Of a DNA stretch of 21,071 bases, positions 3,944 through 21,071 are shown piece after piece (within the stretch, counting starts at the first letter, position 1; each line of letters begins with the position of its first letter). This DNA is from a virus. Both the position numbers and the translations under genes were made by a program. The stretch is taken from IMG/VR virus record IMGVR_UViG_3300042308_000293, positions 1 through 21,071 of that record; one strand, given 5' to 3'. A model generated the notes under the pieces. That model did no database searches. It had not been told where the DNA came from and worked only from the letters and a program-made list of their open reading frames with translations.

Positions 3944-3947
3944 GATG
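3941..3947 (+). promoter_or_regulatory. gp6 stop / giant-gene start junction (TAA g ATG)
   Basis: The gp6 stop TAA and the next ATG are separated by one base. The 14 bases before the ATG (acaagtagcataag) contain no clear Shine-Dalgarno match. This suggests the giant gene is translated by reinitiation or coupling from gp6 rather than by independent ribosome loading. Confidence 0.55.
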
Positions 3948-4380
3948 ACCAGAATACGTACACTAGAATTTTTACCGGGCATATTCCAAACTGAAACTAA
4001 TAGTCAGTTCTTAGCAGCCACGCTCGACCAATTAGTCAATCCTCCTGTAACACAAACTATACAAGGATTCGTGGGTAGTAAATTTGGTTATGGTGTTGAC
4101 GCTAAAGATTACTATGTAACAGAACCAAATAAAGTTCGTAGAGATTATCAATTAGAACCGGGTGTAGTATTCTTAAAGGACAATGAAACTACTGCCTACG
4201 ATTTTATTAGTTATCCTGGCATAATTGACTCATTGAAGTTGCAAGGTGCTATCACTAGTAGAAACGATGAGTTATTTGAAAGTCAGTTCTATAGTTGGGA
4301 CAGTTTTACTAACTTAGATAAGATCATCAACTATAATCAGTATTACTGGTTACCTGACGGTCCTCCCGCCGTAATAGTTG
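3945..4380 (+). other. Conserved N-terminal region of the giant protein
   Basis: Residues 1-145 are the most recognisable start of this family. They show LPGIFQTETN, a Leu/Gln helix (QFLAATLDQLVNP), GFVGSKFGYGV, TEPNKVRRDYQLEPGV, FISYPGIIDSLKLQGA and FNLDK-like NYNQYYWLPDGPP near the end. Related cyanophage proteins begin in the same way directly after gp6, which supports the chosen start and suggests that this end docks on a conserved baseplate partner. The docking role is inferred. Confidence 0.6.
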
Positions 4381-7300
4381 CGGCTTCAACTGTCTTTACA
4401 GAAAACGATTACATAGTCAATTCACTGCCAGAAGCATACAATATCAGAGCAGTAGGCGCAGGTGTTGGTACTAATAATCCAACAATCACCTTATTAAGAG
4501 GTGGTACATATAATTTTATAGTAGATCAAAACACAAGATTTTGGATACAGGGCGAGCCGGGAGTAACAGGCTATAGTCCTACGCAGCCTAATTTAAATAC
4601 TAGAGACGTATACGGCGTTAACAACAACGGTGAAGACCGCGGCGTAGTATCATTTCAAGTACCTCAAAAAGATGCACAGAATGAATTCAATTACCCCGGT
4701 AATAATACAGTAGGTGTTGTTAGCACAAGACCTTTTAGCCAGATCAATGGTGCAAGATTAGCAGACATTGGCGGTATTGATGGGGTCACGGCACTAAATG
4801 GTAGAACAGTTATGTTCTACAATACCGGCGTAACTAACGAGATAGGCTATGTTAGTTCATTCTTTGATCAATCAGCATATGATAGAAATACAGGATCTAT
4901 TTCCTCACCGCTGACTATCAATGCTAGTTCGATAAATGGATTAGGTGCGATCACAGTAAGCAACGTTTCACAATTACAGATAGGACAGACTGTAACATTT
5001 GTAGGAACTGGTTTTGGTGGTATACAGGCATATAATGCTGACGTAGAAAATGCTATATCTACCAATAGTTTGATTGTAGGAAAGAAATATTTCATCGATC
5101 AAGTGGGAACGAGTAACTGGATCAATCTTGGCGTAGCATCAAGCGCAATAGTAGACGCACAGATTGTAGGTACACAGTTAAGAGTTTATAAAACTGTTTC
5201 TGGTTCATTCAGTATAGGTGATACATTAAATGGTTCAGGCGTAACTACAGGCACCAAGATTCTTGATTTTGATGAGATTGCTACCAACAATAATTATTTG
5301 AATGCGTCAAGTGTCACAGTAGGTGATTCATATCTTGTAAGATCATTTGTAGACGGTGCAGGAAATACAACCGACTTCACAGCGATGGGCGCTCCTGCTT
5401 CTGGCGTTATCAACGGTAGCATAGTAGGTACTGTGTTGACTGTGAACAGTATATCATCAGGTGCAGTCAATGTAGGATCTTATATAACAGGTCCCGGCAT
5501 AGTAAAAGGTACTTACATCGTAAGTCAAGGTACTACGGCTAACACATATGTTATAAACAAGACACAGGTCGTCACTGGTCCTATGACATTACAGCCAAGC
5601 GTGAACACATTGTTTACGGCTACTGCTGTGGGTTCAGGTTCAGGAACAGTGAGCATACCTACATATACAGTAAGCATCAACCAAACTGTTGCTAGAAGTA
5701 ATATCAATGTCTATCCTATACAAGAAGGTACTATATTCACAGCAGCCGCAAACGATGCAGGCAACGGCTTTGTAATCCCATTTAATCCAGACATTTATTA
5801 TGTGACTGGTATTAATACTGGAACAAATCAAATCACTATAAGCCAATCATTAAATGGTCCTACGTTCTTACCTACTAGCCCCGCTAGCGGTTCTATGACT
5901 GTTAGAATCAATCAAGGATTGTATGAGCAAGGATTTTATACTCAAGTAAACGACACATTCTATACTGTAGTATTCTTGGGTGATGCAGATGATCCTGTTC
6001 TTAGCCTAAGACCTGCAGGTTCTATACCTATCGAACAAAAGATCACACCGCAATACGGTACACAATATGTTGGACTGCATTTCGTTAAAAATTCTACTGG
6101 TGTGATACAAGAATTACCGTACATCTCTGCCCCATTAGACACATTATATTATCAAGACGGTACTAATCCTAACAGAGTAGGCGTCATCAAATTGATTGAA
6201 AACAATGAGACTAACTTGATCGATGTTGACGCTGATATATTAGGTAAAACGAATTATACATCAAAGAATGGTGTAGTATTCACTAATGGTTTGAAAGTCT
6301 CATTTGATGGAGATGTCATACCACGAAGTTATCTAAGTGGTGAATACTATGTAGAAGGTGTGGGCACTGCTATAGAATTAATATCTGTGACTTCATTGGA
6401 AGTTCCGGAGCCCTTCACTACATCAACATACAGCCCATATGATATATTACCATATGACATAGGACCGTTTGATGAAGGTTTAAATATACCTAACAATTCA
6501 GACTATATCACAATAGCAAGAAATAGCATTAACAAAAATGCATGGGCGCGTAGCAATCGTTGGTTCCATATACAAGTCATACAAGCGACTGCGGATTATA
6601 ACGATAACTCAGCCATACTTGATGAATATGCCAAATCAACAAATAAAGCAAAAAGACCTATACTTGAATTTTATCCTAACTTAAAATTATTCAACTCAGG
6701 TACTATAGGTAAAACTGCTGTAGATTTTGTTGATACTAGAACAACCAATGCATTTGAGTATGTAGAGAATCAACAGAATTATTATCCTGATGTACAAACA
6801 TATACCGCATATCAAGGAACTGTAAATTCTAACAACACACCTATCACTGTAGCCAATTTATTGATAGATCAATATTATGCTATAGAGACTTTAGGATCGA
6901 CTTCTACTGTCACTTGGCAATCATTGGGTGCAATACAAGATCAAGATGGTGGATTTGAAATAGGTGTAGAATATATCATAACAGATTTGGGTACCACTAC
7001 ACAGGCTAATTGGAATTTTATCGCTGGTACTACTACTACCCCAGTCTCATATTCGGTGGGCAATAAATTTACAGCAAAACAATCAGGTACAGGTACCGGC
7101 AACGGTACTGCGCTCAAAGTATTGTTCCAAACATCACTTGCCGGTGTATTGAATTCTGATGAACTTGCATCTGGTCAAATGTATACGATCACTTCATTGG
7201 GTACCACTCAGTGGAATAATATAGGCTATGTCGGTACTCCTATAATAGGTGGCACATTTACTGCTAGCGGCCCTGCTATTGGTACGGGTACTGCTATACA

Positions 7301-10300
7301 GGGTAACGGAACTGTAAAACAAAAAACTACCACGACAGTAACTATCGATCCAGATCATGTCACGGGCACATTTAGTCAAGGTCAATGGATAAATGATCTA
7401 AGATTGAATAATCCAAGCGCGTTGCCTATAGGTACTAGAATACTTTCTATAGAAAATACAGATCCTTATCAGATGACTGTATACTGGCCTATACCATCTA
7501 ACAACATAGTTTCGGCAGTGACCAGTGCATCATTTGTAGCAAGCACAAAAGACAATACTGATTTATTGTTGTTTCCCGGCGCTAGAGTTGTGTTCGCAGC
7601 AGATGAAAACCTATTGATAAGAAACAAGATTTATGTTGTGGGCTTCAACAACACTGGATCAGAATCATATCCAGTCATCACATTGACTGAAGCAGAAGAC
7701 GGCTTAGTTTTAGAAAACGACATGTTCAGCGTTGAGAAAGGTTTCTCTAATAAAGGAAAAACTTTCTATTTCGATAGTGATGAATATAAGCAAGCACAAC
7801 AGAAACAAACAGTTAACCAAGCACCGTTATTTGATATCTTTGATGAAAACGGCATAAGTTATGGTGATGAAACTGTCTACAACAGTTCGTCATTTACTGG
7901 ATGTAAACTGTTTAATTACAAGATCAGTGAAGGTATAAATGACACTATTCTAGGATTCCCTATCAGTTTTAGTTCTATTAACAACGTAGGTGATATCTCA
8001 TTTGAAGTGTCATTATATACACAGCAATTTGATTATATCGACAATGGAAGCTCAGTCACTTCATATGTAAATAATGGATTTGTTTATGATTACAATACCA
8101 GAGATGAATATGATAGATTGATCGGCTGGCAGACAGCAGTAGCACCAAGTACACAGTATCAAGTATTTCAATTTGAATATGTTGCGAATGATCCTGCATT
8201 AGTCTTAGAGCCAGAACAGACTTTTGATTATGTAGTGACTGTAGACGTACCGCAATTAAGTGTTGATACAACGATATGGCCTAGCCTCGAAGTTTACAAC
8301 AACAATAATATATTGACATTGGGTACAGATTATACTGTAGAAAACAAGATCGATTCTACAGTGATCACTATCAAGTTGTCTGAAGATATAGACACACCTA
8401 TTGAAGTGTTGATATTGAGTAACAAGGTAAGTGCAGATGCTTATTACACTATACCTATCAACTTAAGCAACAACCCATTCAATAGCAATCCAGATAATGT
8501 AGACATCGGTGACATACGCGGTCATTATCAAACTATTTTTGATAATAATCCAGACACATCAGGCGTGATGTTTGGTTCTAACAATTATCGCGATCTAGGT
8601 AACATGGTACCATGGGGCAATAGAATCATACAGAATAGCGCAAGCCTTGTATTGCCCGGCGCATTCTTGCGTAACCCAAGACATAACTTATTTGATTCTC
8701 TATTATTCAACAGCAGAGAATATATCAAGTTCAAGACATTATTAGTCGATACCACAGACAAACTTAACATTCAGCAAAAATATGATCCGGCGCTTATACT
8801 TGATCTAGCATTGGATACTATAACTTCAGTCAAGAGCCAAGACCAACCATTCTTCTGGTCTGACATGATACCTAACAAGGCACCATATATCAGTCAGACA
8901 TATAACTTTAATAATCAAGCAGAGACTAGTGTATTTCCATTAAGCAAGATTTACGATTTTAGTACTGCTAACTATGATGGTGTTCTAGTTTATCTACAAA
9001 GAAAGATACAGGGCATCGTAGTTACTAAGCAATTAGTAAGAGGCACAGATTATGTAGTAAGCATAGATAGTCCTAGCGTGACAGTCAACGTGTTTTTACA
9101 AACCAATGATAAAATCATAGTCAAAGAATATAATCAAACTTATGGTTCTTATATCCCCAACACTCCAACTAAGTTGGGTCTATATCCATTATATCTACCT
9201 TCAGTAGTATTGGATAATACATACATAGAACCTACTTATTTCATACAGGGTCATGATGGCTCATATAATAAACTATATGGTGATTATAATGAAACTCTAG
9301 GAATGTTAGTAGACTTCAGAGATCAAGTGTTATTAGAGTTTGAGACTAGAGTTTATAATAACATCAAACTAAGTAGAACATTACCTATCGAAACTGCTGA
9401 AATCGTTCCGGGTTATTTCCGCGACACAGCATTATCATATGTTGAATTCACAGAAATATATAGTAAGAATTTCTTAGATTGGATCGGTCAAAATAGACTT
9501 GATTACAAAACACAATTATATAACGCTAACGATCCTTATACATACAACTACAGAGACAGTAGTTTAAAATTAGATAATAGCACAGTGTTGCAAGGATATT
9601 GGAGAGGTATATACGAATACTTGTATGATACTTCTACACCAAATTTGACACCGTGGGATATGATCGGTTATGCAAATAAGCCTGTCTGGTGGGAAGATCG
9701 TTATGGTCCTGCCCCATACACAAGCAATAACTTAATTTTGTGGACTGACCTACAAAACGGTATTGATTACAATGGCGGTCAACCAGTAGTAAGAACACTA
9801 TATAAGAGACCGGGATTGCTAGAGATAATTCCTGTTGATAGTCAAGGAGAACTAAGACAACCAATAGATGCAGTCATAGGTAACTACAACCAACTGACAT
9901 TTAAGCGCGACTGGAGAGTAGGTGATGACGCACCTGTAGAATATTCATATCGTAAGAGTTCTACATATCCTTTCGATCTAATGAGACTTGAGGCATTATT
10001 GAAGCCAGCAGCATTCTTTAATTTGGGTGCTGACTTAGACAACTACAAATATAACGCTGAGTTCAATCAATTCTTGGTCAATGAAAGAAATCACTTAGTA
10101 CCAGCCAACATAGAAATTTATGGTAATGGTACTGCCAAGACAAGTTATATCAACTGGGTAGTTGACTACGAAAAACAATTGGGCGTTGATGCTACTAAGA
10201 ATATCAAAGAATTGCTAACTAATCTTGATGTAAGATTGGTATATCGTTTAGCAGGTTTTAGCGACAAGACACTATTGAAGTTTTTCGTTGAGAAGGGAAC

Positions 10301-13300
10301 ACCTGAGTCACGTAATAGTTCATTGTTGATTCCTGACGAAAGTTATCAGATTCTACTATATCAGAATCAACCTATGACTAAGTTGATATATTCTGGTGTT
10401 GTAGTACAAAAAATGCAAGAGGGTTATGCTGTGTTCGGCAACAGCCAGACTACAGCATTCTTTAAAATATTGAAGCCTATATTGAACGGTCCTAAGAAAA
10501 GAGTCACTGTTCAAGATGCAACGGTAAATGTAGCAGACAATTATTCTAGCGAAGAAGAGATCGTGCCGTATGGTACAATCTATTACAGTCTGCAAGATGT
10601 AAGCCAATTCTTGATGAGTTATGGTGCTTGGCTAACAGCCAATGGAGCAGTGTTTGATGATCAGATACAAAACGTTGCTATCACTTGGAATCAAATGGTA
10701 GCAGAATTCTTGTATTGGACACAAACTGGATTTATCGACGGTAGCATTATCACATTGAATCCTTCTGCTAGAAAGTTGACTATCGATAAAGAAAGTCAAG
10801 TTGTCCAGCCATTGACATATGATAACAGTAATTTTGTATTGAACAATAATATGTATCCAATACAAAATAAAGATTTGAGCATTTTCAGAGATGGTACTAG
10901 ATTTAGCATATCACCATTAAATGAAGGTGATGCAGTATCATATGGTCAATTTAGTTTGAGCAATATTGAACATGCGGTCGTATTTCAAAATGAGACATTG
11001 TTCAACGACACTATCTACAACTTGGAATCTGGATTGAAACAAAATCGTATCTATGTTCGCGGCACTAAGAGCGGTGAATGGAACGGTACATTGTTCGCAT
11101 CAGGATTCATCTATAATCAAGATAACATACAAGAGTGGGTACCCGGATTAAAATATACTAAGGGTGCCATCATCAAGTACAAGAACAAATACTTCACAGC
11201 ATTGAAGATAGTACAACCAAATCTAAAATTCAAAGAAGATGAATGGAAAGAAACTGACTACGATGAAGTTCAAAAAGGATTGCTACCTAACAGTAGCACA
11301 CGTAGTTATGAAAGCGCATTGTACTATAATGCAAATAAAGCAAACCTAGAACAAGATGCAGACTTGTTGAGTTTTAGTTTGATAGGATTCAGACCACGTG
11401 AGTACATGGCAAGCGCAGACTTGACAGATATCACACAGGTAAATGTTTACAAAAATCTAATCAGAGAAAAAGGAACATTGAATGCAGTGAAGGCATTCAA
11501 GGGTGCAAACTTACCGCAAGGCGGAATCGATTATGATGTCTATGAAAACTGGGCTATAATGCAAGGCACGTTCGGCGGTACGTTGAACGATAACTTTGTT
11601 CAGTTCAGATTAAAAGAATCTAATCTCTCAAACAACCCGTCTATTGTAGGTATCACTGACGGCAATGATATAGAAGGTGCACAACAATTAGTACCGTTAT
11701 ATTCATTGTTTAATTACGGCAGACCTGTCACCGATCCTAATATACTACCTGAAGTAACTTCAGACATTCCTAGCGCAACATTCCCTACAGCGGGATATGT
11801 AAACGTAAACGATGTTAAGATGTCAGCATATTTCTATAGCAATCTACCAACTGCTGTGGGTAAAGACGGTCTAACTGTATCGTTATCACAACTTAATGTC
11901 GGCGATTATGTATGGCTTGCTGACTATAAAGCAAGTTGGCAGATAATGACACCATCTAGCGTCGGTAGAGTATTGTTAGTTCGCAACAATTTAAACGGGA
12001 CTAGCACAGTTCGATTTGCCGATAATCATAACTTGAATCGTTATGATATATTTGCTATCATCAATTTTGACGGCTCAGTAAACGGTTACTATGTAGCAAA
12101 TAATATTATTGGTCCTAAAGAAGTATTGATAACGTTGACGTTATCTCCTAGCGTGAGAGCGGTTGTAGGTGAAGGGGCAGCATTGAGATTCGCCTCACAA
12201 AGAGTTACTAAGCCCGGCAATGTACAAAATCTACCGTTATTGAACAATGAATTCACAAAGAATACAGTTTGGGTAGATGAGAATAATGACGGAGGTTGGG
12301 CAGTATATCGCAAGAACATAAACTTTAAATATCAGCGAGAATTCACAAAAGAAAATAGTCAGAAGTTTGGTTCCGCGGTAGCGTACACTCCACTCATAGA
12401 TTATTTGTTTAGTGATCCTAACTTGGGTAAGGTATATCGTTATCAGTTTGATGCAACCACTGGTGATTATGATCTTGATGAGATATTGTCCGGGGTCACA
12501 ACTTTCGGTACTACTATAGTTCATGAGCAGAACATAGTAGCAATCTCACAACCAGAGAACACACCTAAAGTTTCATTGTATACTGTAAACGATACAAGAG
12601 TCACTGATAACATCATATTATATCAAGAAATATTAGCATCAAGCATAGGTGCTTCTATAACTAATTTCGGTAAGGGATTGGCACTGTCAGGTGATACTAA
12701 TTGGTTGTTCATAAGCGACTACAATGAAAATCCTATAGGCACAAGAAACAAAGTACATGTATTGCGCAAGAGAAATCAGATCATCGATGTAGATAATACC
12801 ACTGTTCTTGACGCCGCGGCGACATATCAGATACTTGATCCTGGCACAGTTAATTGGGTTGATCTAGCACTTGAACCTATCGCTAATGAAACAGGCATAT
12901 ACCTTAAGTGGGACGGAACGACAACACCGACAGGCGAGGGCACGGCTATACGTTGCGATTATCAATATGTCGCTACTATTGACGGGGACGCTACAATAGA
13001 TAGATTTGGTTATTCATTGTCCACTAATAATGATGGCACTATACTAGTCGTAGGTGCACCAAGCAAAGATTTAGATGTGGTGAATCAAGGTCGTTCATAT
13101 GTATACAATAGATTAGTACAGAATTATGAAGTACCCATAGGAACAACAGCCCCGTTGACATTCACACTAGCATGGAGCCCTACTGTAGGGTTACCACTGA
13201 CAGTTTCTAAAAATGGAATCGTTATAGATCCTAGCGATTATTCGTTCTCCGGAACTACGTTTATTTTTACCGGCACTTATGCAGTAGGTGATATCATCAC

Positions 13301-16300
13301 AGTAAGTGGCAATCAGTTCGTCAAAATACAAGAGATGAATGTCTCAGAAGACAATACTAGAATAGGCCCGCAGTTTGGACATTGTGTCGATAGCAACACC
13401 TTTGCTACTGAAATATTAATAGGTGCTCCTTTCTATATTAGTTCTATTAATTCGGAAGGATCAGTGACTAGATATACCAACGGGTCTGCAAGATTCGGAA
13501 CAATCACTAGCACTTCAGATGTAAACGTAACGACTACTAGACAATTATTGATAAATGGTTACTTAGTAAGCATACCAGCCGGCAATGCGAGTGCGGCCGC
13601 ATCGGCTATCAATAATGCTACGATCACAAATGTAGTTGCATCTGCGAACGGTTCTAAATTAACCATTAGCCTAATTAATTCTAATCTAGCATTAAGCAAT
13701 CAAGAATTATTGATATCAGTGACAAACAATGTTACATTGTCTGAGTTAGGGTTTCAACTCTATGCTAAGACACAGACCATACTCAATCCGCACTCGACCG
13801 GACCTAGCCAGTTCGGCACTGTTATCAAGTTTAACGAACACAATAGCGTAGCAATTAGCGCACCATCTGGTACTCGTTATGCGCTAACTACTTTTGATTT
13901 TATTGATGATGAAAATTATCAAAATGATACAATTTTTGATAATAATTCAACACAATTCTTAGACTCATTTGCAAACGCAGGTGCTGTATACGCATATGAC
14001 TATCTAAGTAACTATAATGAATCGCTATTGAACATAGGTAATTACACTTATGCTCAAAGCGTAAATGATACTAGCCTAGATTATGGTGCTCAACCTAGAT
14101 ACGGTTCTGCTCTAGATTGGTCTGCTGGAAGAATTGTTATAGGATCTCCTGACTATAGACCAGAAGACCTAGACGGACAAGTAGTGATATATGATAACAC
14201 ATTAGGTACTACAAACTGGATAGTTTTGAGACAGACTAGCCCTGTCGTTGACATCGACAAGGTTTATAATGTACAACTGTTCAGCGCAGAGACTAACAAT
14301 ACACTCAGCAATTTAGATTACATGGATCCATTGCAGGGTAAATTATTAGGAGCGATCAGACAAAATATAGATGTAATATCTAATATCGATCCTGCAGGTT
14401 ATAACAACTCAGCCGCTACTGCAACACTAGTATGGGGCGAAGCACAATTAGGAACTATATGGTTCGACACATCAAATATACGTTATGTCGATTATCATCA
14501 AAACGACAACAGTTATAACGCACGTTATTGGGGCTCATTATTCCCAGGCAGCGATGTTGCAGTATACAGTTGGGTAGGCAGTACTGTGCAGCCTTCTGCA
14601 TATACTGGCCCAGGAACTCCTAAAGATATCTCTAGTTATACTGTACAAACAGTATTGAATAGTTCAAATACTATAGTACCTGTATATTATTTCTGGGTAA
14701 GAAACACAGGCATCATTTACAATGGTAAGTCATTATCTGATATAAACATAACGCAATATTTGATCAATCCAAAATCATCCGGTATCAGTTATATGGCACC
14801 AGTCAGACCTGATGCAGTAGCATTGTATAACGTAAAGCCATTCTTAAATTCTAATGATACTGTATTGCAATTAGGCTATAGCACCGGTAGCCAAGACAAT
14901 CCTGCGCATCAACAGTTTACATTGATTCGTCAAGATTTCCCCGATGATTTCTTGCCCGGTGTTCCCGGAACAAGAGGGTATGTCACACCTCAAACATTAT
15001 ACGATAGACTGTTAGATAGTATGAGCGGTGTTGACGAGACTGGTGCTGTGGTGCCAGATCCGTTCTTACCAAAAGCAGTTCAATCAGGCGTATTAGCAAG
15101 ACCAAGACAAAGTTTCTTCTATAATCGCTATAAAGCGATACAGAATTATCTACAATATGCCAATACTATCATGGCATTATATCCTATATCTGAGATTAGA
15201 TCATTCAACTTCTTGAATACCTCAGGAAGATATTATGATACTACAGACTATTGGGAAAACATCAACTGGTGGGCACCTGGCTACGATAACAACACTAAGG
15301 CAGTATTACAGGTTCAAGTGTATGCTGACCTGTCTACATTGGAAGTCTCTATAGGAACTATAGTAACTGTAGCACAAAACAGCAATGGATCTGCTGAAAC
15401 ATATCGTTATGACGGTGAAGGCGTATGGACTAGAATTGGATTACAGAACGGTACTATCAGATTCAAAGATGAATTATATGATTATTCTGCGGCTGGATAT
15501 GGTTTCGGCGGCACGTTCTATGATACAGATAGTTTCGATGTGTTCCCGAGCGAAGAAACACGTTGGATCATACGTGCATTGAACGAGCAGATTTATACTA
15601 GTGAATTATTGATATACAGAAACAAGAGTTTGATACTATTGTTTGAGTATATCCAAGAAGAGACTATAGAAAATCAAAACTACTTGCCATGGTTGAATAA
15701 GACATCATTGATTGATGTATCACACAAAGTTCGCGAACTGAGAGAATTAAAGAATTTCGTCAGCGATAACGAACAGTTCCTAGAAGGTTATATCAATGAG
15801 ACTAAACCTTATCACGTAGTGATCAAAGAATTCTCATTCGACTATGAAAGAACTGATGTATATCCAGGCACATTGACTGACTTTGATCTACCTGCAACTT
15901 ATGATACCAATATCGATAAGTTCGTCAGTCCGGAACTCGTATACAGCAATCCAAATACAGATTATGAGTTTTTACCAGATGATTCAGTATGGACTAACGA
16001 AAAATATACTGAATGGTTTAACAACTATGGTGTCAGTTTAACAGGTCAAGAAAACTATCATATAGCAAAACTTGAATCATACTTGACATTATCAAGTCAG
16101 AATATGATCGTAGATAATCCACAAGGATTCCCAGTTAACGGTACTGTGATTATCGGTGAAGAAAAAATAAGTTATGCTAACGTAGATAGAGGCACGGGAT
16201 TGATCACTGGTTTGACTAGAGGTGTAGACCAAACTACAATCACTGATCATCTACCAGGCGCACAAATACGTATAGATTTGCCAGGAGTCTTAGTATTAGA

Positions 16301-19300
16301 CACAGGTAGAAACTATGCCAACCCACCAAGAATCTTAGCGTCTATTGATACTACGATATATCCAGAACCTAAACAAGAGGCTGTGCTTGAAGCAGTGATG
16401 AGTCTAGGTAGCGTTGTGGCAATTAATGTCATTGATCCGGGTCAAGGTTATGCTGTGACGCCAGAGATCGTGATAGATCCTGCTGAGAGATTCTCATTCA
16501 ATAGCAGTAACGTTAGTGTTGCTAACAATACTATCGATATCTATGCACCAATATTGGTGACAGGTGATCTAGTTCGTTATGTTGAAGGCACAGAAAACGT
16601 AGGTGGATTAGCAAACAAACAATACTATTATATCAACGTGTTGAGTTCAAGTCCTACAACTACATTAGCATTGTATACAACATATGCTGATGCGTTGAAC
16701 GATAATAATCGCGTAAAATTCTTGACTCAAGGTACAGGAACTCAAAACTTTGAGTTTGGTGCTAGAGCAGTACCTATCACATCAAGCACTCCGATCAGAG
16801 AAAACAATATCACGTTGCGTTTCGACAGAACAACATACAATACACAAGTATCTGACTGGACTGCTAACACTTTCTATGGTTCTGAATTCGTCAGTTATAC
16901 ATTAGAAGGTGCAAGTAGTGAGGTGTCATTGGCATCCGTTCAACCTGATATCAACAGAATATTATCAAGCGCACAGGGAACTGCATTTCCTATAGTGAAC
17001 ATAACTAATGATAGAGATATAGAATGGTCGTCATTTGAGAGATCAATCGACTATATCGTATCTAATAATGAAATTAAGTTAGTATATACTAGTAGCCCCG
17101 GAGACGAAAACCCATCTGGATCTACTGTAGGTTTCACTATTGGTATGCCAGTAAAATTCACTGGTGTCACTGGCCCGCAGATCATAGCAGGTCAGACATA
17201 CTATATTTCTGAAATCGTAAGTCTTAGCGGATTCAAGATTAGTTTGACACAGGGCGGTAGCACACTAGCATTGACCCCGAACTCATACTTAGATATGAAG
17301 ATGTTCACAGCGCAAGTCATAGATACTGCTGAGATCACTACAATATATTCAGGTTACAGAAATGTAACAGCAACTACTCAAAGCAACGATGCAGTCAAAG
17401 TAGAATTGACTGCTATAGGTACCGGTGGAACTAACGGGCTATACACAAACTTGCCGGTATACTTCACAGGAACAATATTCGGTGGACTAGAAGCAGACAA
17501 GATTTATTACGTAGTCTCAGTACTGGGCAGTGAACTATTCACGTTGTCAGAAACCCCTGATCCGGCTACAGTACGTGTGTTAGAGATGAATGCGGCAAGC
17601 CAGATAATAGTACAAAACACAAATGGTTTAGAAGTCAATGATCCTATCGTATTCGATAGTATGTCAATTAATGGCGAAGCAGTAGGTACATTTGGAAACA
17701 TACAACGACAAGTGATATACTATATTAAGAGTATAGGTATCAACGTGATCACTATAAGCACCACACCAGGCGGTAGCACATTCAACACGGGTGTTGTTGC
17801 TCCGGCAAATGGCAATTATTGTTTCATCACTAGTCAGGCTAGTGTTAAGCAGTTGACCAACGCTACAGGTAGTTGCACTATGGTAGTGTCATTACCAGTA
17901 AGCCCGGGCCAAGTCGACGGACAGAAATTTACTTTCTATCCTACATCACAGCACTATGCAGATATCACAGCACCTAACTTGACATATGGTAATCTTTTAC
18001 AAAAGAACATTGAACAAACATTATCGGATAATGATGTAGCGTTCTCATCAAACAGAACAGGTTTATATACCGGATTCCCATTCACTGTGTCAGCAACAGT
18101 AGGAGCAAATATTCCTAGCAACATCGGTGGACTACAATCAGGCAAAACATATTATGCATACGACATAGGAAATGTAGAAATAGTATGTCAATCATCTACT
18201 TCTTCAACGCTAGTCTACAATGCATCATTCACTGGAACTACGATGAATGTCACATCTATCACTAGTGGTTCAGGTGTGTTGTATCCAGGCACATTAGTGA
18301 CTGGTACCGGTGTTCAAACAAATACCTATATCAAGAGTTACATAAGCGGCACAGGTGGAGTAGGAACATATGAAATAAGCAAAGATTATTTCGTTCCAGT
18401 AGTAACTACCGACACAACATCTGTGACTGGTATATTAACAGTAGCAACTGATTACAATACTAACATGATCTATGAGGGAATGCCTATAGTGTTCTCATTG
18501 ATACCGTTGGGCGGTATAGTATCAGGATTCACTTACTATGTTAGACATATCATAAGCGGTACACGATTTACTGTAAGCCAAGTTAAAGACGAAGCATCTA
18601 TATCACTGACAGTTAGCAATGGAACTATGTTGGGTACAGGTAGCCCTTCATTGAAGGCATACTTACCACTAGGATCATTGACGACTGGCTACAAGTACGT
18701 AATACGTGATGTGGGTGATGGCACACCATCGACCGCTTGGTCAACTATAGGTGCCACATATATAAACAACGTAGCGACATTGACTCCGGGTCAAAAAATC
18801 ATCATTTATACTACAGGAACTACTAACTGGAACATCATAGCCGGAACTACCGGAGTTACATACAATGTCAATGATATCCTCACAGTAGAAAATCCCGGTA
18901 TATTGACGGTAGGAGCAGGTACTGCATTTATAGCGGAATTCACAGCCACAGGCACCGGGTCGTTGACTGATGCAGGTAGTGCTACAGTAGTCTTGGCAGC
19001 ATCTGGCGATACTGCTACATTAGATCAAGAAATAATCGCAGATCCTACATTTGATGTTGGATATATACTGGGCGGTTATAGTGTTGTTATAAACAACGGT
19101 GGTCTAGGATTCACACAAAATAACACTATCACTATACCGGGAACATTATTGGGCGGTACTACACCTGATAATGATTTGACACTAACGGTATCAAGAATCA
19201 ATGCGATAGAAGCGGGTGCGTTTAGTTGGTCATTACCAAGAGAGAGTGACGGAGAGATCACAAAAGTTATAGAGTCCGGAACACCGATCGGTACTGCTAC

Positions 19301-21071
19301 AAACTATTTCTTGAAAGTAACCGGCACTAATACTTTCAAGGTATACAGCGACCCATTGATGCAACTACCAGTAAGCGGAATCAATTTCCCGTATCAAGGA
19401 TTCACACAGAAAAACGTGACGCAGATATCTGCTACTAGTATAACAATGAGTAACGTTACTGGTTTAGCAGTGAATGATAATATAGTATTCACTAACTTAC
19501 CTACAGGGTTGAGCATAGTAGAAGGGCAAACTTATTATGTTCGTTCTATAATAAGCAATAACATTACCATAGCGACAGAACCAGGTGGTACAGCGATAAC
19601 AGTGGGTACAGCAGGCCCGTTCACTACAAATTATCCTGTAGCGACTAAGCCAGGGTCATTCATGTTGCTACCAGAACCGTTCGCATTCACTCCAAGTATA
19701 GTTAAGTATAACAATCGTGTTTGGATGTGTATTGTTTCTAATAACGATGACGAGTTTGTGTTTGGTAAATGGGAACAATTGAATAGCGGTGATCGCAGAT
19801 TGAATGCATTAGATCGTGCTAAGGGTTACTACGATCCTGATGTGAACATGCCCGGTACAGACTTGACACAATTGTTCACTGGATTGACATATCCTAACAC
19901 TACTTACAAGGGTAACGCATTCGAACCTGATCAGCAGTATCCGATAGATACTAGATTAGTAGATACACCATTTGATCCTACTCAGGTTAATGTTCCTGCT
20001 ATTGAATGGGATGGACAAAATTACATCGCTCCTGCAAACTTACCTAACTATGCGGCAGTAATCGCAGATATTGAAATACAAGATGAGTGGTTGCTATCAA
20101 CATTAGCAAATCAAACATTGTCGTTGACCGATATCACTAAGGGTGATGACGTTTACTTGATGACATCAGCCAACTCACCGACTCCGTTATTTAAGAGCGT
20201 AGATAAAGTACGTTGGAGCACTAATGGATTTGTAGTACCTATAGGTACACCTCCCGAATCAGCAGACTTCTTCAAAGTAAGATTGATCGCGGCGGGCATA
20301 CCATTGAATGCTGTCACATATCATGATGGCTTGTATGTGGCTGTAGGTAAGAGCATACTTACAAGCACAGATACTACGATGTGGTATGAGAGATTTAGAT
20401 TCCCGATATTTGACCAATTTAGAGATTTGTTTGATGTTTCTTACGTAGAGACTACTGCATTCTCTGGTTATATCGCAGTAGGTGTAGACTTGCTCAATGA
20501 CGCATTGATATTAAGAAGCACAGACGGAGAGTTTTGGACTAGAGTTACAGGATTGAACGATAGAACTCTAAAGGGAGTGGCATCTGGATTCAATACGATT
20601 TATGTAGTGGGAACTAGTGCTGGATTGTTAACTAGCCCAGACGGAGTAGTTTGGCAGCAAGTATCATTGCCAGGTTCACCTAGCGACTTCAATGCGGTCA
20701 CGTTCGCAGATAATACATTGGTTATAGTCGGCAATGGTGGCCGTGTATATGTATCTACAGACGGCGTGAACTTCACACAGAAATTTACAGGCACACCACA
20801 AAATCTAAACGATGTGATGTATGTTGAAGAAAGAGATCAATGGACTATTGTTGGAAATAATAATACGATATTACAAACTCAAAATATCGCAGCCAACCCG
20901 GTTACATGGGATATCACTCAGGTGTTCTCAAGCCCTGATCCTGACTATACTGTGCAAGGTGATCCATTCTTGAGCGGCTACGGTCCAGAAGAAATGGTGC
21001 CCGGCATCGTATCTGATCAATTAACTATGATTGTTAATACAAGAGCAGGAACAACTTGGCCAGCAACTGAG
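3945..21071 (+). CDS. Giant modular virion protein, at least 5,709 residues, 3' end outside window
   Basis: The frame opens at ATG 3945, one base after the gp6 stop, and stays open for 5,709 codons to the last base. The N-terminus (TLEFLPGIFQTETNSQFL, then DYYVTEPNKVRRDYQLEPGV) and many internal blocks resemble very large structural proteins encoded beside gp6 in T4-like cyanophages and pelagiphages, usually annotated as hypothetical or virion structural. It occupies the position of T4 gene 7 (baseplate wedge, 1,032 residues), but I see no residue-level match to gp7. Domains in order: conserved N-terminus (1-145), cupredoxin-like (180-250), small repeat modules (376-1124), conserved mixed region (about 1560-2550), seven FG-GAP-like blades (2800-3420), conserved scaffold (3426-3986), GLTRG and GxGY modules (4066-4180), TYYV repeats (4196-5220), Asp-box repeats (5454-5660). 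No signal peptide is seen. It is Asn/Thr/Ser/Tyr-rich with only about seven Cys. A virion role is likely from context; receptor or partner binding is inferred. Confidence 0.9.
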   Translation, partial: MTRIRTLEFLPGIFQTETNSQFLAATLDQLVNPPVTQTIQGFVGSKFGYGVDAKDYYVTEPNKVRRDYQLEPGVVFLKDNETTAYDFISYPGIIDSLKLQGAITSRNDELFESQFYSWDSFTNLDKIINYNQYYWLPDGPPAVIVAASTVFTENDYIVNSLPEAYNIRAVGAGVGTNNPTITLLRGGTYNFIVDQNTRFWIQGEPGVTGYSPTQPNLNTRDVYGVNNNGEDRGVVSFQVPQKDAQNEFNYPGNNTVGVVSTRPFSQINGARLADIGGIDGVTALNGRTVMFYNTGVTNEIGYVSSFFDQSAYDRNTGSISSPLTINASSINGLGAITVSNVSQLQIGQTVTFVGTGFGGIQAYNADVENAISTNSLIVGKKYFIDQVGTSNWINLGVASSAIVDAQIVGTQLRVYKTVSGSFSIGDTLNGSGVTTGTKILDFDEIATNNNYLNASSVTVGDSYLVRSFVDGAGNTTDFTAMGAPASGVINGSIVGTVLTVNSISSGAVNVGSYITGPGIVKGTYIVSQGTTANTYVINKTQVVTGPMTLQPSVNTLFTATAVGSGSGTVSIPTYTVSINQTVARSNINVYPIQEGTIFTAAANDAGNGFVIPFNPDIYYVTGINTGTNQITISQSLNGPTFLPTSPASGSMTVRINQGLYEQGFYTQVNDTFYTVVFLGDADDPVLSLRPAGSIPIEQKITPQYGTQYVGLHFVKNSTGVIQELPYISAPLDTLYYQDGTNPNRVGVIKLIENNETNLIDVDADILGKTNYTSKNGVVFTNGLKVSFDGDVIPRSYLSGEYYVEGVGTAIELISVTSLEVPEPFTTSTYSPYDILPYDIGPFDEGLNIPNNSDYITIARNSINKNAWARSNRWFHIQVIQATADYNDNSAILDEYAKSTNKAKRPILEFYPNLKLFNSGTIGKTAVDFVDTRTTNAFEYVENQQNYYPDVQTYTAYQGTVNSNNTPITVANLLIDQYYAIETLGSTSTVTWQSLGAIQDQDGGFEIGVEYIITDLGTTTQANWNFIAGTTTTPVSYSVGNKFTAKQSGTGTGNGTALKVLFQTSLAGVLNSDELASGQMYTITSLGTTQWNNIGYVGTPIIGGTFTASGPAIGTGTAIQGNGTVKQKTTTTVTIDPDHVTGTFSQGQWINDLRLNNPSALPIGTRILSIENTDPYQMTVYWPIPSNNIVSAVTSASFVASTKDNTDLLLFPGARVVFAADENLLIRNKIYVVGFNNTGSESYPVITLTEAEDGLVLENDMFSVEKGFSNKGKTFYFDSDEYKQAQQKQTVNQAPLFDIFDENGISYGDETVYNSSSFTGCKLFNYKISEGINDTILGFPISFSSINNVGDISFEVSLYTQQFDYIDNGSSVTSYVNNGFVYDYNTRDEYDRLIGWQTAVAPSTQYQVFQFEYVANDPALVLEPEQTFDYVVTVDVPQLSVDTTIWPSLEVYNNNNILTLGTDYTVENKIDSTVITIKLSEDIDTPIEVLILSNKVSADAYYTIPINLSNNPFNSNPDNVDIGDIRGHYQTIFDNNPDTSGVMFGSNNYRDLGNMVPWGNRIIQNSASLVLPGAFLRNPRHNLFDSLLFNSREYIKFKTLLVDTTDKLNIQQKYDPALILDLALDTITSVKSQDQPFFWSDMIPNKAPYISQTYNFNNQAETSVFPLSKIYDFSTANYDGVLVYLQRKIQGIVVTKQLVRGTDYVVSIDSPSVTVNVFLQTNDKIIVKEYNQTYGSYIPNTPTKLGLYPLYLPSVVLDNTYIEPTYFIQGHDGSYNKLYGDYNETLGMLVDFRDQVLLEFETRVYNNIKLSRTLPIETAEIVPGYFRDTALSYVEFTEIYSKNFLDWIGQNRLDYKTQLYNANDPYTYNYRDSSLKLDNSTVLQGYWRGIYEYLYDTSTPNLTPWDMIGYANKPVWWEDRYGPAPYTSNNLILWTDLQNGIDYNGGQPVVRTLYKRPGLLEIIPVDSQGELRQPIDAVIGNYNQLTFKRDWRVGDDAPVEYSYRKSSTYPFDLMRLEALLKPAAFFNLGADLDNYKYNAEFNQFLVNERNHLVPANIEIYGNGTAKTSYINWVVDYEKQLGVDATKNIKELLTNLDVRLVYRLAGFSDKTLLKFFVEKGTPESRNSSLLIPDESYQILLYQNQPMTKLIYSGVVVQKMQEGYAVFGNSQTTAFFKILKPILNGPKKRVTVQDATVNVADNYSSEEEIVPYGTIYYSLQDVSQFLMSYGAWLTANGAVFDDQIQNVAITWNQMVAEFLYWTQTGFIDGSIITLNPSARKLTIDKESQVVQPLTYDNSNFVLNNNMYPIQNKDLSIFRDGTRFSISPLNEGDAVSYGQFSLSNIEHAVVFQNETLFNDTIYNLESGLKQNRIYVRGTKSGEWNGTLFASGFIYNQDNIQEWVPGLKYTKGAIIKYKNKYFTALKIVQPNLKFKEDEWKETDYDEVQKGLLPNSSTRSYESALYYNANKANLEQDADLLSFSLIGFRPREYMASADLTDITQVNVYKNLIREKGTLNAVKAFKGANLPQGGIDYDVYENWAIMQGTFGGTLNDNFVQFRLKESNLSNNPSIVGITDGNDIEGAQQLVPLYSLFNYGRPVTDPNILPEVTSDIPSATFPTAGYVNVNDVKMSAYFYSNLPTAVGKDGLTVSLSQLNVGDYVWLADYKASWQIMTPSSVGRVLLVRNNLNGTSTVRFADNHNLNRYDIFAIINFDGSVNGYYVANNIIGPKEVLITLTLSPSVRAVVGEGAALRFASQRVTKPGNVQNLPLLNNEFTKNTVWVDENNDGGWAVYRKNINFKYQREFTKENSQKFGSAVAYTPLIDYLFSDPNLGKVYRYQFDATTGDYDLDEILSGVTTFGTTIVHEQNIVAISQPENTPKVSLYTVNDTRVTDNIILYQEILASSIGASITNFGKGLALSGDTNWLFISDYNENPIGTRNKVHVLRKRNQIIDVDNTTVLDAAATYQILDPGTVNWVDLALEPIANETGIYLKWDGTTTPTGEGTAIRCDYQYVATIDGDATIDRFGYSLSTNNDGTILVVGAPSKDLDVVNQGRSYVYNRLVQNYEVPIGTTAPLTFTLAWSPTVGLPLTVSKNGIVIDPSDYSFSGTTFIFTGTYAVGDIITVSGNQFVKIQEMNVSEDNTRIGPQFGHCVDSNTFATEILIGAPFYISSINSEGSVTRYTNGSARFGTITSTSDVNVTTTRQLLINGYLVSIPAGNASAAASAINNATITNVVASANGSKLTISLINSNLALSNQELLISVTNNVTLSELGFQLYAKTQTILNPHSTGPSQFGTVIKFNEHNSVAISAPSGTRYALTTFDFIDDENYQNDTIFDNNSTQFLDSFANAGAVYAYDYLSNYNESLLNIGNYTYAQSVNDTSLDYGAQPRYGSALDWSAGRIVIGSPDYRPEDLDGQVVIYDNTLGTTNWIVLRQTSPVVDIDKVYNVQLFSAETNNTLSNLDYMDPLQGKLLGAIRQNIDVISNIDPAGYNNSAATATLVWGEAQLGTIWFDTSNIRYVDYHQNDNSYNARYWGSLFPGSDVAVYSWVGSTVQPSAYTGPGTPKDISSYTVQTVLNSSNTIVPVYYFWVRNTGIIYNGKSLSDINITQYLINPKSSGISYMAPVRPDAVALYNVKPFLNSNDTVLQLGYSTGSQDNPAHQQFTLIRQDFPDDFLPGVPGTRGYVTPQTLYDRLLDSMSGVDETGAVVPDPFLPKAVQSGVLARPRQSFFYNRYKAIQNYLQYANTIMALYPISEIRSFNFLNTSGRYYDTTDYWENINWWAPGYDNNTKAVLQVQVYADLSTLEVSIGTIVTVAQNSNGSAETYRYDGEGVWTRIGLQNGTIRFKDELYDYSAAGYGFGGTFYDTDSFDVFPSEETRWIIRALNEQIYTSELLIYRNKSLILLFEYIQEETIENQNYLPWLNKTSLIDVSHKVRELRELKNFVSDNEQFLEGYINETKPYHVVIKEFSFDYERTDVYPGTLTDFDLPATYDTNIDKFVSPELVYSNPNTDYEFLPDDSVWTNEKYTEWFNNYGVSLTGQENYHIAKLESYLTLSSQNMIVDNPQGFPVNGTVIIGEEKISYANVDRGTGLITGLTRGVDQTTITDHLPGAQIRIDLPGVLVLDTGRNYANPPRILASIDTTIYPEPKQEAVLEAVMSLGSVVAINVIDPGQGYAVTPEIVIDPAERFSFNSSNVSVANNTIDIYAPILVTGDLVRYVEGTENVGGLANKQYYYINVLSSSPTTTLALYTTYADALNDNNRVKFLTQGTGTQNFEFGARAVPITSSTPIRENNITLRFDRTTYNTQVSDWTANTFYGSEFVSYTLEGASSEVSLASVQPDINRILSSAQGTAFPIVNITNDRDIEWSSFERSIDYIVSNNEIKLVYTSSPGDENPSGSTVGFTIGMPVKFTGVTGPQIIAGQTYYISEIVSLSGFKISLTQGGSTLALTPNSYLDMKMFTAQVIDTAEITTIYSGYRNVTATTQSNDAVKVELTAIGTGGTNGLYTNLPVYFTGTIFGGLEADKIYYVVSVLGSELFTLSETPDPATVRVLEMNAASQIIVQNTNGLEVNDPIVFDSMSINGEAVGTFGNIQRQVIYYIKSIGINVITISTTPGGSTFNTGVVAPANGNYCFITSQASVKQLTNATGSCTMVVSLPVSPGQVDGQKFTFYPTSQHYADITAPNLTYGNLLQKNIEQTLSDNDVAFSSNRTGLYTGFPFTVSATVGANIPSNIGGLQSGKTYYAYDIGNVEIVCQSSTSSTLVYNASFTGTTMNVTSITSGSGVLYPGTLVTGTGVQTNTYIKSYISGTGGVGTYEISKDYFVPVVTTDTTSVTGILTVATDYNTNMIYEGMPIVFSLIPLGGIVSGFTYYVRHIISGTRFTVSQVKDEASISLTVSNGTMLGTGSPSLKAYLPLGSLTTGYKYVIRDVGDGTPSTAWSTIGATYINNVATLTPGQKIIIYTTGTTNWNIIAGTTGVTYNVNDILTVENPGILTVGAGTAFIAEFTATGTGSLTDAGSATVVLAASGDTATLDQEIIADPTFDVGYILGGYSVVINNGGLGFTQNNTITIPGTLLGGTTPDNDLTLTVSRINAIEAGAFSWSLPRESDGEITKVIESGTPIGTATNYFLKVTGTNTFKVYSDPLMQLPVSGINFPYQGFTQKNVTQISATSITMSNVTGLAVNDNIVFTNLPTGLSIVEGQTYYVRSIISNNITIATEPGGTAITVGTAGPFTTNYPVATKPGSFMLLPEPFAFTPSIVKYNNRVWMCIVSNNDDEFVFGKWEQLNSGDRRLNALDRAKGYYDPDVNMPGTDLTQLFTGLTYPNTTYKGNAFEPDQQYPIDTRLVDTPFDPTQVNVPAIEWDGQNYIAPANLPNYAAVIADIEIQDEWLLSTLANQTLSLTDITKGDDVYLMTSANSPTPLFKSVDKVRWSTNGFVVPIGTPPESADFFKVRLIAAGIPLNAVTYHDGLYVAVGKSILTSTDTTMWYERFRFPIFDQFRDLFDVSYVETTAFSGYIAVGVDLLNDALILRSTDGEFWTRVTGLNDRTLKGVASGFNTIYVVGTSAGLLTSPDGVVWQQVSLPGSPSDFNAVTFADNTLVIVGNGGRVYVSTDGVNFTQKFTGTPQNLNDVMYVEERDQWTIVGNNNTILQTQNIAANPVTWDITQVFSSPDPDYTVQGDPFLSGYGPEEMVPGIVSDQLTMIVNTRAGTTWPATE
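4482..4694 (+). other. Cupredoxin-like beta domain (no copper ligands seen)
   Basis: Residues about 180-250 read TLLRGGTYNFIVDQNTRFWI, a turn with GEPGVTGY, then DVYGVNNNGEDRGVVSFQVP. This is the pattern (L-x-R-G-x-T-Y-x-F, G-V-x-N-N-G, G-x-x-x-F-x-V-P) of a beta-sandwich domain common in marine phage structural proteins. The His and Cys that ligate copper in true cupredoxins are absent, so a structural or binding role is likelier than redox. The fold is inferred from pattern only. Confidence 0.5.
5070..5432 (+). repeat. GTTxW-type modules, copies 1-2
   Basis: Copy 1 (5070-5174) reads VGKKYFIDQVGTSNWINLGV; copy 2 (5313-5432) reads VGDSYLVRSF, then TTDFTAMGAP and GSIVGT. Shared pattern: hydrophobic-G-x-x-Y-x-I/V, then GTT/S-x-W/F, then two to three residues and a hydrophobic-G/A. 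Many aquatic phage tail proteins carry such 35-50 residue modules with the core GTTDF. They are probably small beta units. Boundaries are approximate. Confidence 0.55.
5178..5591 (+). repeat. GxGVxxxT modules, copies 1-2
   Basis: Copy 1 (5178-5312) has GSFSIGDTLNGSGVTTGTKI and copy 2 (5424-5591) has NVGSYITGPGIVKGTYIVSQ. The shared pattern is x-G-x-x-hydrophobic-x-G-x-G-V/I-x-x-x-T-x-I, usually followed by a Y-x-hydrophobic strand. A third copy lies 13 kb downstream at 18216-18410. Copies interleave with the GTTxW modules, as expected if modules were shuffled and then diverged. Confidence 0.5.
5712..5868 (+). repeat. Isolated early TYYV-type module
   Basis: The translated segment carries QEGTIFTAAANDAGNGFVIP followed by DIYYVTGINTGTNQITISQS. 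The hydrophobic-Y-Y-V strand, short turn and x-I-T-I-S strand match the repeat that forms a cluster from 16530 onward. The similarity is low and boundaries are approximate. Confidence 0.4.
6858..7316 (+). repeat. Tandem GTTxW-type modules, copies 3-5
   Basis: Three adjacent copies: 6858-6955 (IDQYYAIETLGS, VTWQSLGAI), 6954-7121 (GVEYIITDLGTTTQANWNFI, ending SGTGTGNGTAL), and 7161-7316 (GQMYTITSLGTTQWNNIGYV, then GGTFTASGPAIGTGTAI). The last is the best match to the usual module: Y-x-I-x-S-L-G-T-T-x-W, F-T-A-x-G, and a GTGTA end. The copies differ at most positions, so they are old or fast-evolving rather than recent duplications. Confidence 0.6.
9219..9370 (+). other. IQGHDGSY conserved block of the giant protein
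   Basis: Residues about 1759-1809 read YIEPTYFIQGHDGSYNKLYG, then DYNETLGML, FRDQVLLEFETRVYNNIKL. The H-D-G-S-Y followed by Y-G-D-Y and an acidic helix ending in R-hydrophobic-Y-N-N-I-K is a stretch I recognise as recurrent in large structural proteins of marine T4-like phages. H-D could suggest a catalytic or metal site, but no further active-site residues are identifiable and a structural role is equally possible. Confidence 0.4.
9393..11580 (+). other. Long conserved mixed alpha/beta scaffold of the giant protein
   Basis: Residues about 1817-2546 differ from the Thr/Gly-rich module regions. They are richer in charged and aromatic residues and contain plausible helices (for example LSYVEFTEIYSKNFLDWIGQ, DLMRLEALLKPAAFF, DVSQFLMSYGAWL). 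Trp-rich turns such as GYANKPVWWEDRYGP and FKRDWRVGDD are strongly reminiscent of the corresponding part of cyanophage giant proteins. I take this as a core scaffold. No enzymatic motif is seen. Confidence 0.45.
11130..11262 (+). other. Small W/Y module resembling carbohydrate-binding type 5/12 pattern
   Basis: Residues about 2396-2440 read QEWVPGLKYTKGAIIKYKNK, YFTALKIVQ, then DEWKE. The W-x-P-G-x-x-Y-x-x-G-x-x-V/I-x-Y-x-x-x-Y-x-A...W order resembles the small chitin-binding-type module found in many phage tail proteins. A related, shorter version is at 19689-19800. Binding to a glycan is inferred only. Confidence 0.35.
12342..14204 (+). repeat. Seven FG-GAP-like blades (candidate beta-propeller)
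   Basis: Seven repeats begin with F/Y-G at 12366, 12504, 12666, 13005, 13374, 13812 and 14100 (residues 2808, 2854, 2908, 3021, 3144, 3290, 3386). The clearest is FGYSLSTNNDGTILVVGAPS followed by GRSYVYNR. Others are QFGHCV with EILIGAPF and EGSVTRY; QFGTVI with VAISAPSG and GAVYAYDY; and YGSALD with RIVIGSPD and GQVVIYDN. The first three are more diverged (KFGSAVAY with GKVYRYQF; TFGTTIV with IVAISQPE; NFGKGLAL with WLFISDYN). FG-GAP repeats form the seven-bladed propeller of integrin alpha chains and occur in bacterial surface proteins. The Ca-binding DxDxDG-type loop is not preserved. Blades are separated by inserted modules at about 12804-12950, 13116-13360 and 13500-13790. Confidence 0.7.
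12804..12950 (+). repeat. GTTxW-type module inserted between FG-GAP blades 3 and 4
   Basis: The segment reads AATYQILDPGTVNWVDLALE and ends in GTTTPTGEGTAI. It keeps Y-x-I-x-x-x-G-T-x-x-W and the GTA-like end of the modules near 7.1 kb and 18.7 kb. Its place inside the blade array suggests a module inserted in a propeller loop. Confidence 0.45.
14220..15903 (+). other. Second conserved scaffold region of the giant protein
   Basis: Residues about 3426-3986 contain blocks I recognise from cyanophage-type giant structural proteins: QGKLLGAIRQNID, then LGTIWFDTSNIRYVDYHQND, ARYWGSLFPGS, a YYFWV strand, PDAVALYN, WENINWWAPGYD, PSEETRWIIRALNEQIYTSE leading into LLIYRNKSLILLFEYIQEE, and INETKPYHVVIKEF. 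The final part (about 15540-15850) is helical and charged. The region interrupts the beta-module pattern and is probably structural. No catalytic motif is seen. Confidence 0.5.
16140..16485 (+). other. GLTRG and GxGY small modules
   Basis: The first module (16140-16275) reads GTVIIGEEKISYANVDRGTG then LITGLTRGVD and ends HLPGAQIRI. It is a compact beta unit (G-E-E-x-I-x-Y, G-L-T-R-G, H-x-x-G-A) frequent in marine phage tail proteins. It is followed by two GxxY-x-x-P units: LDTGRNYANPPRIL and VIDPGQGYAVTPEIVID (to 16485), separated by VMSLGSVVAINV. The D-P-G-x-G-Y-x-x-x-P pattern is a known repeat in such proteins. All functions are unknown. Confidence 0.5.
18216..18410 (+). repeat. GxGVxxxT module, copy 3
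   Basis: This copy reads TSITSGSGVLYPGTLVTGTG, VQTNTYIKSYISGTG, then GTYEISKDYFVPV. It is the fullest version of the module at 5178-5591 (x-G-T-L-V-x-G-x-G-V-x-x-x-T-x-I, then G-T-Y-x-hydrophobic-S). It lies between two TYYV modules. Confidence 0.5.
18678..18965 (+). repeat. Tandem GTTxW-type modules, late copies
   Basis: Two adjacent copies: 18678-18770 (TTGYKYVIRDVGD, TAWSTIGATY) and 18780-18965 (PGQKIIIYTTGTTNWNIIAG, then YNVNDILTV and FIAEFTATGTGSL). The second has both the GTTNW core and the F-T-A-T-G-T-G end that mark the module elsewhere in the protein. Confidence 0.55.
19689..19960 (+). other. Conserved block before the Asp-box repeats
   Basis: Residues about 5249-5339 read SIVKYNNRVWMCIVSNNDDE, FVFGKWEQL, RLNALDRAKGYYDPD, NMPGTDLTQLF, GLTYPNTTYKGNAF. 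The first part repeats the W/Y small-module pattern of 11130-11262. The second (N-A-L-D-R, Y-Y-x-P, M-P-G-x-D-L-T-Q-L, Y-P-N-T-T-Y-x-G-N-x-F) is a block I recognise from related marine phage proteins. It is probably a linker or base for the following repeats. Confidence 0.45.
20304..20924 (+). repeat. Five Asp-box / BNR-like repeats
   Basis: Five repeats of about 32-40 residues: 20304-20399 (LYVAVGKSILTSTDTTMWYE), 20427-20546 (YIAVGV, ILRSTDGEFWTRV), 20568-20663 (IYVVGTSAGLLTSPDGVVWQ), 20688-20786 (LVIVGNGGRVYVSTDGVNFT) and 20805-20924 (WTIVGNNNTILQT, TWDITQV). Each has hydrophobic-x-x-V-G, a Gly-containing turn and S-x-D-G-x-x-W/F, the Asp-box seen in sialidase, Ycf48 and other beta-propellers. 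The last copy lost the Asp-box proper. Sialidase catalytic residues cannot be identified, so this is a structural or binding propeller, with possible further blades beyond the window. Confidence 0.65.

Follow-up and report, generated by a model that had tools for sequence, protein, structure and literature searches.

The gp7 equivalents of contractile systems have been described in T4, XM1, pyocin R2 and others, and the (gp6)2-gp7 module, in which the gp7 partner begins with a helix-turn-helix, is well conserved across these systems (PMC10457771). The gene order gp25-gp6-gp7 also occurs in P2 (W-J-I), Mu (46-47-48), KVP40 and cyanophages, including P-SSM2. The wedge partners of the gp6 dimer in T4 (gp7), P2 (gpI), Mu (gp48) and XM1 (gp17) have sizes of 176-1,032 aa, and giant proteins in the gp7 position are already known from P-SSM2, with an annotated gp7 of 5,195 aa, and from RaK2-like phages (~3,330 aa). 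Phage proteins of up to 7,694 aa have been published (PMC7162821). Also known from cultured phages are the PHROG 10938 family, to which the protein described here belongs, and its virion association. Mass spectrometry of phAPEC6 detected gp245 (381.88 kDa) with 17 unique peptides (PMC7247149), at a chain coverage of 7.6% that gives neither the location in the virion nor proof of an uncleaved chain; PA5oct gp355 is annotated ESI-MS/MS, and CBB_236 was detected with 21 peptides and 7.72% coverage (PMC5259590).

The DNA analysed here (the window) is an entire IMG/VR record of 21,071 bases and is filled by three genes on the + strand. The first (48-500) encodes a gp25-like baseplate wedge or sheath initiator protein of 150 aa, with PF04965 at 28.4 bits (cut-off 27.2) and matches to PHROG baseplate wedge families. 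The second (548-3943) encodes a gp6-like baseplate wedge protein of 1,131 aa (PHROG 10646, E 2.6e-254) in which N-terminal residues 27-126 match the T4-like gp6 family PHROG 219 and which is 31-41% identical to the gp6-position proteins of RaK2, 121Q, PA5oct, Atu_ph07, Phosso and Vibrio phage 2.275.O. The wedge context is therefore correct. One base after the gp6 stop at 3943, the ATG of the third gene follows (TAA-G-ATG), and translation confirms the earlier observation that its frame is free of stops from 3945 to the window edge at 21071, where it runs off, with 5,709 codons in the window. At the base composition of the window, log10 P(no stop) for such a frame is approximately -177, and the other five frames of the region contain 288-589 stops each.

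Searching with the final 709 residues of the window protein recovered two contigs that carry the gene to its end. G001 (IMGVR_UViG_3300043803_000118; 70,479 b) is from the same population and includes the full window with 7 mismatches over 21,071 b; here the downstream extension proposed in the preliminary description reaches a TAA stop, giving an ORF at 39934-59556 that encodes 6,540 aa (~718 kDa). The expectation of a product of more than 600 kDa directly behind gp6 in a T4-like wedge operon thus holds for the complete form. G002 (IMGVR_UViG_3300047550_001767; 88,673 b) represents a distinct lineage, and its giant protein has 6,569 aa, with ~61-64% identity to the G001/window protein over the length. 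Divergence between G001 and G002 per codon position is 0.29/0.21/0.56, a coding pattern, and five of the seven differences between the window and G001 are synonymous, which together show that the giant gene is under protein-level constraint.

We conclude that the huge frame represents a single, real gene. Because the contigs are metagenomic and the window ends within the gene, we weighed a chimeric or mis-assembled contig or a chance open frame, but this explanation is refuted to near certainty by two full-length contigs from separate lineages, by 13 further IMG/VR contigs with stop-free giant frames of 6,086-6,632 codons and by the purifying codon pattern. Inflation by tandem repeats was also rejected, as no tandem arrays and no self-similar blocks (by BLASTP) were found. 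Across the 22 contigs examined, open frames of 4,601-6,632 codons have no internal stops, and the 11 contigs at 60-73% identity to the window core block have 6,222-6,601 codons. The giant frame is broken in three relatives, L097, L102 (~9,700) and L039 (~10,246). In L097 and L102 the frame changes at one homologous position (window aa ~1580-1630), which may reflect a real split, a frameshift or an assembly fault common to both.

The giant is a member of the PHROG 10938 family, from a jumbo myovirus of the RaK2/PA5oct/Atu_ph07 type. This family of 3,324 positions, named 'virion structural protein' and classed by PHROG under head and packaging, matches four successive 1,000-aa pieces of the giant with E-values of 8e-43, 3e-89, 1e-71 and 8e-56, and the gene lies directly downstream of gp25 and gp6. 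By tblastn, aa 2001-3000 match 84 phage records and the N-terminal 1,000 residues match 25, nearly all from RaK2-like or related jumbo phages, and at least 595 IMG/VR stretches encode relatives. We found neither a described function for any family member nor a relative in the PDB, in line with the earlier suggestion that the family is widespread, keeps conserved scaffold blocks and is functionally undescribed. A homologue of 3,323-4,555 aa is preceded by a gp25-like gene and a large gp6-like one in nine cultured phages (RaK2, 121Q, Munch, XbC2, Hallingskeid, PA5oct, Atu_ph07, Phosso and Vibrio phage 2.275.O). The relatives RaK2 ORF070w, 121Q gp582, phAPEC6 gp245, PA5oct gp355 and Atu_ph07 gp180 are homologous to the giant over all scaffold blocks at 23-36% identity and occupy the same site next to gp6. 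In Salicola phage SCTP-2 the homologue has 3,807 aa, and the ORF upstream of it, of 3,096 aa, was considered as a giant gp6 and set aside, given that BLASTP returned no gp6 match.

The identity of the phAPEC6 gp245 gene as a homologue of the giant was confirmed, and CBB_236, which lies beside gp6 and gp25 of CBB, is probably a further homologue, by position only. Judging by its relatives phAPEC6 gp245 and PA5oct gp355, the giant is probably a virion protein. Together with its close environmental relatives it is the largest family member found in this analysis. At 6,540 aa it is rightly placed among the larger phage proteins, yet the published 7,694 aa rule out a size record.

Of the 5,709 window residues, 2,840 fall in alignment columns occupied by at least 70% of ten cultured relatives, and 2,272 in columns occupied by fewer than 30%. 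Scaffold blocks lie at approximately aa 1-190, 743-945, 1207-2680 and 3425-4038, and the surplus over the cultured relatives is assigned by the alignment to insertions between these blocks, among them aa 191-742, and to an extended C-terminal part, the last 700 residues of which have no BLASTP match in those relatives. The conserved N-terminal block (aa 1-190; 3945-4514, +) is 31-36% identical to PA5oct, Atu_ph07 and Phosso. In the aligned RaK2 segment it is modelled as a helix-turn-helix followed by a beta/alpha part; the helices, which would correspond to the helix-turn-helix of XM1 gp17, have low confidence (pLDDT 33-58). The large insertion at aa 191-742 (4515-6170, +), whose position was confirmed in a second comparison, has an alignment occupancy near 0 and is largely missing from the cultured relatives, and the second scaffold block (aa 743-945; 6171-6779, +) is matched by relatives with E-values down to 7e-11. 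Comparison with cultured relatives also delimits a block at aa 1207-1641 (7563-8867, +), followed by the best-conserved one at aa 1735-2680 (9147-11984, +), which lies within the PA5oct match (E 5e-109). The RaK2 segment aligned to the second half of block 1207-2680 is modelled at pLDDT ~90 over most of its length, and Foldseek found no PDB resemblance for the RaK2 model of this block.

Further along, FG-GAP-like repeats at aa ~2908-3404 (12666-14156, +), with PF14312 at 24.3 bits (cut-off 23) and five motif copies, probably form an integrin-type beta-propeller, as judged from the sequence. In the last scaffold block (aa 3425-4038; 14217-16058, +), W, KTS and KPY positions hardly vary. The region of this block gave a weaker model than block 1207-2680 (mean pLDDT 67.5, pTM 0.41) and no PDB match by Foldseek. 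A module at aa 4027-4121 (16023-16307, +) is common to the giant gp7-position protein of S-PM2 (33% identity, E 1e-4). YCF48/BNR-like repeats at aa ~5464-5660 (20334-20924, +) match PF19755 (E 2e-4) and PF14870 (E 0.007), both below the curated cut-offs; the motif copies are regular in G001 and G002 and may represent a second propeller. An E1_FCCH-like domain, also below cut-off, lies near aa 6105 of the complete protein. Beta-rich modules of these three kinds are found between and after the scaffold blocks. In BFVD the matches comprise members of the family and phage proteins that are uncharacterised.

The gene order gp25-gp6-gp7 is reproduced by the giant, which has the gene position of T4 gp7, P2 gpI, Mu gp48 and XM1 gp17 but differs from them in size and shows no significant match to them. 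The profile searches and segment models against gp7 suggested in the preliminary description were run, and the T4 gp7 profile, hhalign and Foldseek all gave non-significant results. The T4 gp7 profile (PHROG 964) has no match in RaK2-like genomes and, among 11 records, finds only T4 itself; no Pfam Gp7 domain is among the Pfam hits of the giant. An hhalign comparison of the giant with gp7 gave E 0.13 at a probability of 0.5%, and the N-terminal and KPYH regions gave nothing significant against T4/cyanophage gp7, Mu gp48 and P2 gpI, negatives that are weak for Mu and P2, whose profiles are shallow (Mu and two relatives; P2 gpI alone, its relatives being near-identical). BLASTP against T4, KVP40 and cyanophage gp7 showed only insert-type modules in common, and PDB profile searches with the giant gave no significant match to any gp7. 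Foldseek of the two modelled parts against the PDB gave no hit at E <= 0.001, with no gp7 structure among the 50 matches listed per model. Whether 'FLEGYINETKPYHVVIKEF' resembles 'CLLEKYKPAHQIYKF', with which Mu gp48 ends, was weighed, and the likeness was not confirmed. Part of T4 gp7 is matched, too, by PHROG 2885, a baseplate-wedge family of 4,179 positions. The cyanophage proteins P-SSM2 gp7 and S-PM2 p084 (3,048 aa) resemble the giant in gene order and size, and that of S-PM2 in at least the one common module; however, the P-SSM2 N-terminus has a T4 gp7-like motif (192-269 against T4 720-787, E 7e-4), whereas none is detectable in the giant.

Direct gp7 homology thus found no significant support in sequence, profile or fold. 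Of the earlier claim that the giant replaces or is fused with gp7, the position behind gp6 stands, but the gp7 identity is unsupported by these comparisons. We read the giant as probably a wedge protein in the gp7 position and, since all direct gp7 tests were non-significant, do not class it as a gp7 homologue. We put the probability that it is a baseplate-wedge protein in the gp7 position, building an enlarged baseplate periphery, at roughly 0.6. The operon in G001 runs gp53-like - hub - gp25 - gp6 - giant. Its hub gene (32624-36019; L016:6624-10019) encodes a gp5-like protein of the hub/tail-lysozyme type with 1,131 aa and a long Ala/Ser/Thr-rich C-terminal part, the best PHROG match being confined to N-terminal residues 27-415. 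As a wedge protein, the giant would take the place of gp7 with one copy per baseplate wedge, its N-terminus pairing with the gp6 dimer, and the chain of FG-GAP, YCF48-like and E1_FCCH-like modules would form an enlarged periphery that may contact host surface glycans or dock fibres; six copies would add ~4.3 MDa. This reading is favoured by the complete and stop-free giant frames, by the identical neighbourhood in the nine cultured phages, by the gene order common to P2, Mu, KVP40 and P-SSM2, by the detection of relatives in virions, by the low-confidence helix-turn-helix of the RaK2 model and by the failure of profiles to detect a T4-type gp7 elsewhere in these genomes, although contractile systems such as T4, XM1 and pyocin R2 have a gp7 equivalent. 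Against it stand the non-significant gp7 comparisons, the low confidence of the N-terminal helices, the head-and-packaging label, the SCTP-2 upstream ORF lacking a gp6 match and the 7.6% peptide coverage in phAPEC6, too low to locate the protein or to prove an intact chain.

Right behind the stop of the giant begins an ORF of ~55 codons (G001 59557-59724) that ends in SSHVKIFDPNTKEIFVQKRADD; small genes also occupy this site in PA5oct (gp356) and Atu_ph07 (gp179), and the IFDPNTKEIFV motif of the ORF is similar to the beginning of the next protein. This next protein (~204 aa; G001 59722-60336, L012:14789-15403) belongs to PHROG 11259, of which each of the 11 related genomes tested, RaK2, 121Q and PA5oct among them, has a single copy. 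It raises the alternative that the giant is a peripheral tail protein, such as a fibre or whisker, merely located behind gp6, and that the true gp7 equivalent is a small undetected protein such as this one. The 11/11 single-copy occurrence, the location immediately or almost immediately behind the giant in most genomes, the MS detection in PA5oct, the size of the P2 and Mu gp7 equivalents (only ~180 aa) and the lack of measurable gp7 similarity in the giant all fit. However, in RaK2 and 121Q the 204-aa gene is several genes away on the opposite strand, the protein has no PDB or gp7-family match, and the place next to gp6 in RaK2-like phages is kept by the giant and not by the small protein, so we regard this alternative as rather unlikely. 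Further downstream, a 309-aa protein (G001 60368-61297; L012:15435-16364) has an above-cut-off match to PF11962, the Peptidase_G2 IMC autoproteolytic chaperone domain, which is typical of phage spike or fibre ends. Behind the structural genes, G001 62619-69341 appears, by sequence alone, to encode glycosyltransferase-like proteins and at least three that are radical-SAM-like; annotated radical SAM genes are also found behind the giant in Atu_ph07 and Phosso.

The giant could also be a precursor or fusion, combining for example gp7 with gp8 or with further peripheral parts of the wedge, from which several virion proteins are cleaved. The core of gp8 (PHROG 438) was not detected in the RaK2-like records and the four metagenome contigs tested, where only the insert-type module of this family matched, in the Atu_ph07 giant. 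The separately conserved blocks with variable insertions between them and the three broken frames would suit such a precursor too, but no protease-site or family evidence for cleavage was found, the giant has no Pfam or PHROG match to gp8 or gp10, and PA5oct has a separate annotated gp10-like gene, which leaves this explanation improbable. Returning to the wedge protein, a bolder version is that its scaffold is a structurally new wedge arm without homology to gp7 of the T4 type, which took over from gp7 (and gp8) in a very abundant group of environmental jumbo phages and grew beyond 700 kDa through glycan-binding-like modules, six copies making up most of the baseplate periphery; we offer this only tentatively and consider it doubtful.

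What is new here is the complete length of the giant, the recurrence of ~6,100-6,600-codon frames among many relatives from the environment, the map of its blocks and the lack of a relative with a solved structure. An abundant metagenomic family includes some of the largest virion proteins of jumbo phages, for which no described function was found. In the cultured relatives RaK2, 121Q, phAPEC6 and PA5oct, both its position in the baseplate and the identity of the protein that does the work of gp7 can be tested directly.
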